The position numbers and the translations under genes were made by a program. DNA of 64,000 bases. Origin: Anaerosoma tenue. GTDB lineage: Bacteria > Actinomycetota > Coriobacteriia > Anaerosomatales > Anaerosomataceae. The notes under the pieces were generated by a model. That model was not told the DNA's origin. It saw only the letters and a program-made list of their open reading frames with translations, and searched no databases. Below are positions 39,277-43,462 of the stretch, in pieces. The stretch is taken from the NCBI RefSeq assembly GCF_023161965.1, contig NZ_JALNTY010000001.1, forward strand, positions 664,501 to 728,500. Reading direction: 5' to 3'. Each line of letters starts with the position of its first letter. Within the stretch, counting starts at the first letter, position 1.

Positions 39277-40041
39277 CTACGTGATATGCCCCAGGAAGTC
39301 CTGCGTGCGTTCGTTCTGGGGATTGTCGAACACGGCGGCCGGCGGACCCTCCTCCACGATCACGCCGCCATCCATGAACACGGCCCGGCTGGCCACCTCG
39401 CGCGCAAAGCCCATCTCGTGGGTGACCACCAGCATGGTCATGCCGGCCTGGGCAAGCTCCTTCATCACGTCGAGCACGCCGCGCACCAGCTCGGGGTCGA
39501 GCGCCGAGGTCACCTCGTCGAAGAGCATCACGTGCGGGTCCATCGCCAACGACCGCGCGATGGCCACGCGCTGCTGCTGTCCGCCGGAGAGCTGCGCCGG
39601 GTAGTAATCCACCCGGTCGCCGAGGCCCACTCGCTCAAGCTGCTCCATGGCGACCCGCTCGGCCTCGGCCTTGGAGCGCTTGAGCACCTTGCGCTGCGCG
39701 AGCATCACGTTGCCTTTGGCCGTGAGGTGCGGGAAGAGGTTGAACTGCTGGAACACCATCCCGATGCGCTCGCGCACCTCGTTGATGTTCGTCTTGGGAT
39801 CGTTGACCTTGATGTCCTCAAGCCAGATCTCTCCGCCGGTGGGCTCCTCCAGGCGATTCACGCACCGCAGCATGGTGGACTTGCCCGAACCGCTGGGGCC
39901 CAGGATCACCACCACCTCGCCCTTCTGAACGTCCATGTCCACGTCGCGCAGCACCTCGACCTCGCCAAAGCACTTGCGCAGGTTGTTGATCCGGACGATC
40001 GGGCCCTCGTAGCCGGGGGTGCTCTCGATCTTGTCGGTCAT
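39277..40041 (-). CDS. polar amino-acid ABC transporter ATPase (GlnQ/HisP-like)
   Basis: A 254-residue ABC ATPase with Walker [10 protein letters not shown], the Q-loop segment [13 protein letters not shown] typical of polar amino-acid importers, signature [17 protein letters not shown], Walker [14 protein letters not shown] and H-loop VVTHEMGFA. The TSALDPE and FNLFPH motifs place it in the GlnQ/HisP group. It follows the permease gene by nine bases and powers the importer formed with that permease and a lipoprotein binding protein. Confidence 0.94.
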
Positions 40042-40050
40042 CGTCGCCCC

Positions 40051-41400
40051 CTATCGTCCGGTATCGGGCCGCGATGCGGCATCGTCGTCTGCGAGCGGCA
40101 CGTTAGCGCCGCGCTCACGCGCAGCTATCGCTGCCGCGGCCACGGCCTTGCGCTCCTGCTCGTGCGCCAGGTTGTCCTCGGTGCTCTTCTCAAAGGTCAC
40201 CGAACCGCCGCCCTCCGAGCGCGCCAGCCGGTTCTCGAGTTGCTGCACGAGACGGCCGAGCGGGATGGTGATCACGAGATAGAAGAGCGCCGCGAGCAGA
40301 TACGAGGAGACGTTGAGCGTGCTCGACGCCACCTCACGCGCCTTCATGACCATCTCGCCAAAGCCCACTGCCGCAAAGAGCGAGGTGTCTTTGAACAGCA
40401 GGATGAACTCGGACATCATCGTGGGCAGGATGCGGCGCACGGTCTGCGGGATGATCACGTAGGTCATCGACTGCGCCGCGGTCATTCCCAGTGAGCGCGC
40501 CGCCTCGGTCTGCCCCTTGTTGATCGACTCGATGCCGGCGCGGAATATCTCGGCCATATATGCCGAGGAGTTGAAGCTGAGCACGAGGATCACGCGCAGC
40601 CACATCGAGTTGTCTTCGCCGAAGAGCCCCGGCTGGTTGATCACGGGCAGCATCTTCACCAACGTCTGCCAGAACGGCATCAGCGGCAGCCCGAAGAACA
40701 CGATGAGGATCTGCAGGAAGATCGGCGTACCACGGACCACGTCCACGTAGAGCGTGGCGGGCCAACGGAACCATCGCGTGCGGGCCATCTTCATGAAGGC
40801 CAGCGTGAGGCCGCCCGGGATGGCGAATGCGAACGAGATCAGCACCGCCACCAGCGAGATCGGGAACGCCCTCGCGATGATGGGGAACGCGGCTGAGATG
40901 ACGTCGGGTGACGCGAACAGGTGCGAGACCTTGGCGGCCTCCCACCAGTCGAGCGCGCCCAGGATGCCCGGCCGCCCAGAATCGAACACCACGTCCGAGC
41001 CGCCCACCGTGATCACGTCGCCATCGGTGAGGGTCGGCGTTCCCTCTACGGGCGCGCCGTTGAGCAGCACCGGCGTGGGGCTGGTCTCCTCGGCGGTGAG
41101 CACCCACTCGGTGTCACGCATGCCCGCTCCGGGCGGCGTGCGCTGCATCGTGGCCGCGAGGTTCTTCTCCAGTTCGGCGAGGTCGGCCACCACGTTGGTC
41201 TGCGACCGCCCGATGGTGATCTCGTCGCGTGTGGGCGAGATCACATACACATCGTCCACGGTGCCGGTCTGGCCGCGTGGCGCGTTACGCTCGAAGAGCA
41301 TCCGCGCCGGGCCTGTCATCGTGAGCAGCAATGCCAGAAGCACCACCGCCACGACGCCCGTGATCACGTACCCAAGTGAGTTACGGAGCTTTGAGTGCAC
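40051..41400 (-). CDS. polar amino-acid ABC permease with extra N-terminal helix and FHA-like domain
   Basis: The 449-residue protein starts at GTG 41400 after AGGAGG. Residues 165-395 form a HisM/GlnP-type permease with the coupling loop EAARSLGMTAAQSMTYVIIPQ at about 299-319. Before it are a transmembrane helix (11-30) and an inserted domain at about 51-139 with ITIGRSQTN, VLLNGAPVEGTPTLTDGDVITVGG and VVF, which follow the strand order of an FHA domain (GR, N-G, G-D-x-I). With the N-terminus inside, that domain would lie outside the membrane. Phosphothreonine-contact residues (S-x-x-H) are not apparent. A charged Ala/Glu tail follows after 396. The usual family length is about 220 residues. 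Confidence 0.85.
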   Translation of the reverse strand: MHSKLRNSLGYVITGVVAVVLLALLLTMTGPARMLFERNAPRGQTGTVDDVYVISPTRDEITIGRSQTNVVADLAELEKNLAATMQRTPPGAGMRDTEWVLTAEETSPTPVLLNGAPVEGTPTLTDGDVITVGGSDVVFDSGRPGILGALDWWEAAKVSHLFASPDVISAAFPIIARAFPISLVAVLISFAFAIPGGLTLAFMKMARTRWFRWPATLYVDVVRGTPIFLQILIVFFGLPLMPFWQTLVKMLPVINQPGLFGEDNSMWLRVILVLSFNSSAYMAEIFRAGIESINKGQTEAARSLGMTAAQSMTYVIIPQTVRRILPTMMSEFILLFKDTSLFAAVGFGEMVMKAREVASSTLNVSSYLLAALFYLVITIPLGRLVQQLENRLARSEGGGSVTFEKSTEDNLAHEQERKAVAAAAIAARERGANVPLADDDAASRPDTGR

Positions 41401-41430: not shown

Positions 41431-41461
41431 TGGGGCCGGCGGTTCGTGTCCGCCGGCCCCA
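41431..41461 (-). terminator. hairpin between binding-protein and permease genes
   Basis: A 12-bp perfect stem TGGGGCCGGCGG/CCGCCGGCCCCA with a seven-base loop. In binding-protein operons such hairpins often lower downstream expression or stabilise the binding-protein mRNA. Confidence 0.6.
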
Positions 41462-41523: not shown

Positions 41524-42420
41524 CTAGTCGGCCTTCTTGACCGCGAGCGACTGGTTGGAGTTGATGTACGGATCCGAGAAGTCCACCGACTGCTTGCGCT
41601 CGTCGGTGATCGTCATCGCGGATGCGATCATGTCGAACTCGGTGCCAGCCTGCACGCCGGTGATCAGCGCGTCGAACTTGTAGCTCTTGAACTCGACGTC
41701 AACGCCGAGCTTCTCGCCGATGGCGTTCATCAGGTCGACGTCGAAGCCCACGACCTCGCCACCCTCGACGTTCTCGAACGGCGGGTAGGCGGTGTCGGAG
41801 CCGACCACGATCTTGCCGTCGGTGATGAGATCCATCTCGCCAGCGGGCTGCTCGGTGACGCCGCTCTCGGCCTCAGGGTAGGACATGGGGGCCGCGCCGA
41901 ACCAGGTCTCGTAGATGGTGTCGTAGGTTCCATCGGCGATAAGCTCGCCAAGCGCCCAGTTCACGGAGTCACGCAGGACCGCGTCGTCCTTGTTGAACGC
42001 GAAGCCGTAGGTCTCATCGGTGGGGATCTCCTCAACGATGACCAGACCGCGAGTCTCGTCCTTCACGATGTCCTGGCTGATCGGCAGGTCGTTGACCACG
42101 CCGTCGACGTCGCCAGCCTGCAGCGCCGAGAAGGCAAGCAGGATGTCGTCGTACGCAACGACCTCGACGCCCTTGGTCTCCAGGTTCTCCCTGGCCCAAC
42201 CCTCGCCAGTGGTACCGGACTGGACGCCGACCTTGTCGCCCTCTCCGAGATCGTCAACGCCCGCGATCGCGCCTTCGGTCTCGTCGGCAGGGGCCTCGGT
42301 CTCGCTGCCCGTGTCGGTGTCCGTGGTCTCCTCATCGCCCGCACAACCGCTCAGCGCGAACATGCTGAACGCAAGCGCGAGAGCCATGAAGAGAGCCAGG
42401 AACTTCTTTGACTTGCTCAT
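41524..42420 (-). CDS. circularly permuted amino-acid-binding lipoprotein (SBP_bac_3 type)
   Basis: The 298-residue protein starts at ATG 42420, with AAAGGAGG five bases before. A signal peptide ends in lipobox LSGC (Cys26), followed by an acidic Thr/Asp/Glu linker. The two halves of the solute-binding fold appear in reversed order. Residues 53-175 match the second half of family 3 binding proteins (GDKVGVQSGTTGE, GVVNDLP, then the usual C-terminal end DGTYDTIYETWFG). Residues 203-298 match the first half (GKIVVGSDTAYPPFEN, GFDVDLMNAIGEKLG, TITDERKQSVDFSDPY, ending SLAVKKAD). Ligand-binding residues (the Arg of TDERK, SGTTGE, the Asp of NDLP) are kept. It works with the permease and ATPase encoded next. 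Confidence 0.92.
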   Translation of the reverse strand: MSKSKKFLALFMALALAFSMFALSGCAGDEETTDTDTGSETEAPADETEGAIAGVDDLGEGDKVGVQSGTTGEGWARENLETKGVEVVAYDDILLAFSALQAGDVDGVVNDLPISQDIVKDETRGLVIVEEIPTDETYGFAFNKDDAVLRDSVNWALGELIADGTYDTIYETWFGAAPMSYPEAESGVTEQPAGEMDLITDGKIVVGSDTAYPPFENVEGGEVVGFDVDLMNAIGEKLGVDVEFKSYKFDALITGVQAGTEFDMIASAMTITDERKQSVDFSDPYINSNQSLAVKKAD

Positions 42421-42485
42421 GGAGCCTCCTTTGAATGCCAAGCCGTGAGGGCTTCTCGGTGCCCCCCTTACATCACCGGTGCATA

Positions 42486-42610: not shown

Positions 42611-43462
42611 CTAGCTGGTGGCGCCGTCCACAGAGACGGTCAACGCGGGCACATCGCCGAGCCATTTGCGACGGATGGTCTCGAGCACGCCGTCGGCAGC
42701 CATGCCGTCGAGCGCGGTACGCACCGCCGCCTCGAGTTCCACCGCGTCCTTGCGCACCGAGATGCCCAGTGGCTGCGCATCGCCGAACTGCCCCGCGAAG
42801 CCCACGCCCGGATGGTCGCGTGCGATGTACGCACCCACCACCGCGTCGCCGGCGACCACGTCGATCTCACCCGCATCGAGTGCCGCGATGGCGTCCTTGA
42901 GCGTGTCGAACGACTGCACGAAACCCTCCCCGTACTCGCCCTCGAGCTCCCAGAAGGCCGCGCTCGAGGCTTGCGCACCCACACGCATGCCGGGGATCTG
43001 CTCAGGCGTCACGGTGGCCACCACCGAAGCCGAGGTGTCATCCGATGAGGCCGCGAAGAACGCCGGTCCGTCCACGATGTAGCTGCCGGCGGTCGTGACG
43101 TTGGCGAGCACGGCATCGGTGATCGGCACGGCGCCCAGCATGATGTCGATCTCGCCGGAATCGAGCGCGGCGGTCATGTCGGCCGGCTTCACATCCACCA
43201 GCTCCAGATGCAGCCCGAGCCGCTCGGCCACCGCGGCAGCCACATCCACGTCGATGCCGACCTTGGCGCCGTTGGCGGTGCCGGCGAACGGCGGATACGC
43301 CATATCGACGCCCACGCGGAGAACACCCTCCTCGGCGATCACCGGCGGTTCCACGACCGGCGTGCGAGCGGGCTCCTCCTCCGGAGCGCCGCCGCCACAG
43401 CCCACGAGGCCGACGGCGAGCGCCACCACGAGCAGGACCACCGGCAGAAGACGTGCCCTCAC
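42611..43462 (-). CDS. amino-acid-binding lipoprotein, normal domain order
   Basis: The 283-residue family 3 solute-binding protein starts at GTG 43462, with AAGGAG seven bases before. The lipobox is VGCG after a hydrophobic signal (LLPVVLLVVALAVGL). The order is standard: VLRVGVDMAYPPFAG, MLGAVPITDAVLANV, then the second lobe IPGMRVGAQASSAAF and the end ETIRRKWLG. The usual TITxER motif reads AVPITDAVLA, so the conserved ligand Arg is not at its normal place and the ligand may differ. It has no permease gene of its own and may feed the neighbouring importer. Confidence 0.88.
   Translation of the reverse strand: MRARLLPVVLLVVALAVGLVGCGGGAPEEEPARTPVVEPPVIAEEGVLRVGVDMAYPPFAGTANGAKVGIDVDVAAAVAERLGLHLELVDVKPADMTAALDSGEIDIMLGAVPITDAVLANVTTAGSYIVDGPAFFAASSDDTSASVVATVTPEQIPGMRVGAQASSAAFWELEGEYGEGFVQSFDTLKDAIAALDAGEIDVVAGDAVVGAYIARDHPGVGFAGQFGDAQPLGISVRKDAVELEAAVRTALDGMAADGVLETIRRKWLGDVPALTVSVDGATS

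Follow-up and report, generated by a model that had tools for sequence, protein, structure and literature searches.

Most natural circular permutations of proteins are ancient and visible only by structure comparison. Among the two-lobed solute-binding proteins, OpuAC of Bacillus subtilis (2b4l/2b4m) has been grouped with ProX and the molybdate-binding proteins as circular permutants (PMC2395249), and TpMglB-2 (Tp0684), a lipid-anchored type I glucose binder, has been described as naturally permuted and assigned to a proposed 'Type Ic / Cluster Bc' (PMC4990184). The permutation of OpuAC, a betaine-binding member of family PF04069, is ancient, its partners being less than 24% identical, whereas the type I sugar fold of TpMglB-2 is permuted inside the N lobe and gains a fourth crossing between the lobes; TpMglB-2 itself binds ligand and changes conformation. 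The tandem binding domains of GlnPQ (6h30) place the second half of one domain before the first half of the next, as in a presumed duplication intermediate, but are two complete ordinary domains without permutation. For family 3 (PF00497), which includes GlnH, HisJ, LAO and the ancestral binding protein AncQR, no report of natural permutation was found in the non-subscription literature searched. The original prediction likewise knew of none described in this family; in other solute-binding families natural permutation is known, as OpuAC and TpMglB-2 illustrate.

The 64,000-nucleotide stretch of the Anaerosoma tenue genome analysed here (the window) carries a gene for a family 3 solute-binding lipoprotein of 298 residues in which the two halves of the canonical domain follow each other in reverse. 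The gene lies at 41524..42420, as originally given, but on the minus strand; its open reading frame is intact, from the ATG at 42420 to the stop codon at 41526..41524, and a strong Shine-Dalgarno sequence, AAAGGAGG (42425..42432, minus strand), stands 4 nt 5' of the start codon. All parts of the protein are encoded on the same strand: a lipoprotein signal peptide with the lipobox LSGC and Cys26 (residues 1-26; 42343..42420), an acidic and Thr-rich linker following the lipid anchor (residues 27-51, 25 residues of a length that varies between orthologs; 42268..42342), the canonical second half, from hinge 1 to ...WFG (half B, residues 52-175; 41896..42267), a new linker (residues 176-202, 27 residues; 41815..41895) and the canonical first half, which ends in the first hinge strand, SLAVKKAD (half A, residues 203-298; 41527..41814). 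PF00497 recognizes the protein with 137.3 bits against a curated cut-off of 26.4, as two stretches and with the canonical half order absent; the best stretch aligns residues 204-297 with profile positions 1-93, that is, the normal start of the family placed C-terminally. Likewise, phmmer aligns residues 202-297 with positions 10-105 of AncQR (4zv1) and residues 52-175 with positions 109-232. The reversal of the halves within one intact reading frame is thereby confirmed as real and not an artefact, and the residue numbers first proposed for the two halves were right. The adjacent second family 3 binding protein (42611..43462, minus strand; its start codon is uncertain and the gene perhaps extends to 43594) keeps the usual order, as had been claimed (PF00497, 48-269 matching 1-131). 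Because profiles are matched in local pieces, permutants of this kind are easily hidden, and both Pfam and NCBIfam report plain family 3 hits.

The protein resembles PF00497 members in possessing both halves, the ligand-contact residues, the lipoprotein anchor and an operon with permease and ATPase genes, and differs from them in the reversed halves and in termini located within hinge strand 1. An ordinary family 3 chain crosses between the lobes twice. From the order of the parts, we infer that the cut in hinge strand 1 would leave one covalent crossing instead of two and that the lipid anchor would be connected on the hinge/lobe 2 side rather than to lobe 1; the window protein would thus lose a crossing where TpMglB-2 gains one. 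The structure prediction advised originally, here by AlphaFold2 with 19 permuted sequences, returned a single confident unit comprising both halves (one model, pLDDT 84.3, pTM 0.75), with only residues 23-49 below pLDDT 50. In sequential comparison, model residues 49-178 fit residues 123-251 of 6h30, in the first of the two GlnPQ binding domains (127 residues at 1.9 A), and model residues 196-288 fit residues 2-90 of LAO (6ft2; 88 residues at 1.0 A); the protein is family 3 by sequence as well, and the Type I fold of TpMglB-2 is absent from it. The best near-full sequential match, over model residues 46/50 to 298 with Z of 11-11.7, is OpuAC (2b4m, 202 residues, Z 11.7; 2b4l, 209 residues), which is itself in the published permutant set; such a resemblance is to be expected of a family 3 protein with this permutation. 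OpuAC is likewise a natural permutant of a two-lobed binding protein, yet is only 11-12% identical to the window protein, in which PF04069 finds no match at E 0.001. The permuted protein is predicted still to make a single two-lobed domain that closes round an alpha-amino acid. That the halves instead fail to build a common domain in cis, and assemble as a domain-swapped dimer or are used separately, is improbable: a lone covalent crossing between the lobes would be compatible with such an arrangement, and the family member TmArgBP is known, as stated in the title of a cited report, as a loosely domain-swapped dimer (PMC10087775), but the single-chain model is confident despite 49 disordered N-terminal residues, and the 27-residue linker between the old termini is ordered (pLDDT ~88-90).

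Throughout the order, the genes of the locus are arranged as aec - comF - second binding protein - binding protein - permease - ATPase - hpf; the fourth place is taken by either a permuted (B-A) or an ordinary (A-B) binding protein. In the window, the cognate amino-acid ABC permease, which bears an N-terminal extension, is encoded at 40051..41400 (minus strand; BPD_transp_1 at residues 193-393) and is the same neighbour in permuted and unpermuted loci; the cognate ATPase follows at 39277..40041 (minus strand; PF00005) and is GlnQ-like, with 338 bits for PRK09493, under the cut-off of 379 for that model. With these two genes downstream, polar amino-acid uptake is the best reading of the system, and the permuted gene product would be its predicted binding lipoprotein. 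The alpha-amino-acid contacts of LAO, D11, F52, S72, R77, T121 and D161, presumably correspond, as mapped by motif, to D209, F249, T270, R275, T71 and D111 of the permuted protein. These putative contact positions, including Thr270 in place of Ser, do not vary among the 23 permuted and 31 unpermuted orthologs compared, which bears out the claim that the ligand-contact motifs are kept. A second binding protein encoded just upstream could serve the same permease, leaving the permuted protein with its family 3 fold for sensing or another role outside transport; we regard this as unlikely, considering that, wherever the neighbours are intact, the slot directly precedes the permease and ATPase genes, whether permuted or not, and that the permease tree largely tracks the binding protein rather than the flanking genes.

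The unpermuted counterparts at the same locus, alignable with the permuted proteins after rotation, identify the window gene as a natural permutant. In three genera, both forms occur at the same chromosomal place. The nearest ordinary versions, found in five families, are on average 72% identical to the permuted proteins over half A and 65% over half B; for a more distant group of ordinary proteins the figures are 56% and 54%, respectively. One MAG holds permuted and ordinary operon copies on two small contigs and, given its 7% contamination, may be a mixed bin. Ordinary proteins end in ...KKWFGAEPLSIP directly before the stop codon and, after the lipid cysteine, start with ...PAFTTLTEGKIIVGSDTAYPPFE; permuted proteins are continuous across the joint, ...WFGAxPMSxP-(x)n-TLTxGKIIVGSDTAYPPFE, so that the new linker consists of the old C-terminal tail (AAPMSYP, compare AEPLSIP) followed by the old N-terminal linker (...LITDGK, compare TTLTEGK). 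Conversely, the ordinary hinge SLAVAADSTIATVDDL is split between the new C-terminus, SLAVKKAD before the stop codon, and the new start of half B, AIxSVDDL, which places the cut within the first hinge strand.

A joint made of the old tail and the old linker, together with a hinge cut in two, would be the expected remnant of a gene duplicated in tandem, joined in frame and stripped of its outer halves, and this junction supports the route that the original prediction had considered plausible. The ordinary gene would have been duplicated in tandem, the tail of the first copy joined in frame to the mature N-terminal linker of the second, and half A of the first copy and half B of the second lost. 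No tandem or fused intermediate was found among the syntenic loci, and it is for this reason that we infer the route, which nevertheless appears the likely one from the sequence of the joint. The two family 3 genes in tandem at the locus might instead suggest a fusion of neighbours, with half B drawn from the adjacent second binding protein; this is very improbable and we reject it, because half B belongs with that of the unpermuted ortholog (~65% identity) and shares only ~29-35% with that of the neighbour. Over the comparison with the permuted protein, the second binding protein is 29-36% identical, too diverged to have been the source of either half.

Duplication, fusion and loss would then have been followed by replacement of the permuted and ordinary genes by one another at a single syntenic slot, lineage by lineage. 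The flanking genes hpf and comF have trees that track kinship, on which 12 and 11 switches between the permuted and ordinary forms are required, respectively; a single switch suffices on the binding-protein tree, for which the halves were brought into a common order, and 2 on the permease tree. Since the flanking-gene trees mix the forms and the binding-protein and permease trees do not, the binding-protein/permease cassette has been subject to exchange or sorting, and the genes beside it have stayed in place. The permuted proteins of the order form one clade in one tree (support 95/77); with more outgroups they do not, yet a single clade is not rejected (p-AU 0.42), and one permutation event inside the order is the simplest account.

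A whole-protein search for orthologs with the halves in the same arrangement, as had been advised, covered 69 genomes from the order and recovered the permuted form in 23 of them, across seven families and at 64-99% identity; the rest of the sampled class gave no whole-protein match at E <1e-60. Each of the 22 further genomes contains one full-length match free of internal stops, and Cys26 is retained in all full-length permuted orthologs. Where named, these relatives are Coriobacteriia and Anaerosomatales MAGs, and one of the 22 is a single-contig genome of 1.84 Mb (BDLO01000001.1). The permuted protein is under purifying selection: dN/dS between permuted orthologs is 0.07-0.30, and both halves are constrained (pN 0.04-0.19 versus pS 0.25-0.61, a near-identical pair left out), the new linker being looser, with the highest pN. 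An assembly or frameshift artefact joining pieces of two genes can practically be dismissed for the window gene because of these orthologs, given that, even if most relatives are MAGs and the second case described below comes from one 68%-complete MAG, intact full-length proteins recur in 23 genomes on separate contigs and in separate assemblies, one of them a single contig, and purifying selection extends across both halves. Neither of the two outcomes originally named as refuting the permutation was therefore borne out: no frameshift or assembly join is seen, and the predicted structure is a single confident unit. Taken as a whole, the reading of the gene as a permuted family 3 binding lipoprotein of a polar amino-acid importer, which would have arisen by duplication, fusion and loss and undergone replacement at its slot, is in our estimate highly probable.

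Further permutations were sought across 396 sampled genomes from the phylum. A single HSP across the whole query is by itself no proof of permutation; tandem domains, for instance those of GlnPQ, also yield a one-piece match to the query, and the length of the reading frame and the order of the halves were therefore checked case by case. Outside the order, one protein matches the query over residues 5-295 in one piece, at 42% identity. This protein, from MAG G619 (L178:1341-2228), is encoded downstream of LivG/LivF-type ATPase genes and shares with the window protein the B-A order, the hinge cut and the type of joint (...KYFPDQEVPDYSD...FETVKEGALTVGSD...). It groups as sister to the protein of genome G427, which has the ordinary order, is encoded in a similar operon and is 66-75% identical in the two halves (support 99/95). 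G619 belongs to another class of the same phylum and is the sole carrier of the second permutation in the 16 genomes from its order and the 24 from its class. A common origin of all permuted genes including that of G619 was considered and rejected, the one-clade constraint giving p-AU 3.9e-6, or 5.8e-5 with more rows; the trees thus point to a second, independent event at the same hinge. Lipoproteins of ~1030 residues, encoded at 14 loci of Marine Group II archaea (L150:3848-6949 and 13 others), contain a family 3 domain arranged as A(45-93)-B-linker-A(3-39), the cut falling after helix 1 and before strand 2; two type I receptor domains come after this permuted domain, and a gene for a LivH-like permease adjoins. 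AlphaFold2 on this domain, with 14 close sequences, reached a pLDDT of 31, and the case, which is one of sequence alone, represents a probable candidate for a third independent permutation. A homology search among plasmids returned no permuted protein, only an Enterococcus protein with tandem domains. It is possible, although somewhat less likely than not, that permutation at hinge 1 is a recurrent and viable step, taken independently at least twice at the same hinge and once elsewhere, in Marine Group II, and that the two forms in the Anaerosomatales-like Coriobacteriia are alternative alleles of one transporter slot which would differ in function through the single-strand hinge and the moved tether.

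What is new here is the occurrence of natural permutation in family 3, a cut in the hinge strand that would remove a crossing, the presence of close unpermuted orthologs at a shared locus and the second, independent event. The permutation also appears unusually recent, with its unpermuted counterparts at hand. As permuted and unpermuted proteins are 65-72% identical at one locus and the parallel event likewise has an unpermuted sister, folding, hinge closure and tethering become directly comparable between the two forms. How and why swaps of halves arise is accordingly open to direct testing, and the family is one from which biosensors are commonly made.

Two further features lie close to the permuted gene. 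Between the binding-protein and permease genes, at window positions 41432-41460, a perfect 11-bp hairpin, GGGGCCGGCGG-TTCGTGT-CCGCCGGCCCC, is present with no T run, and is perhaps an mRNA-stability element. The N-terminal extension of the permease follows its first membrane segment (window positions 40969-41313, minus strand; residues ~30-145) and is apparently missing from the shorter permeases of some relatives. Over residues 61-142, the permease is similar to the Rv1747 FHA domain (6cah, E 0.0067), and the FHA-like extension possibly lies on the outer side of the membrane.
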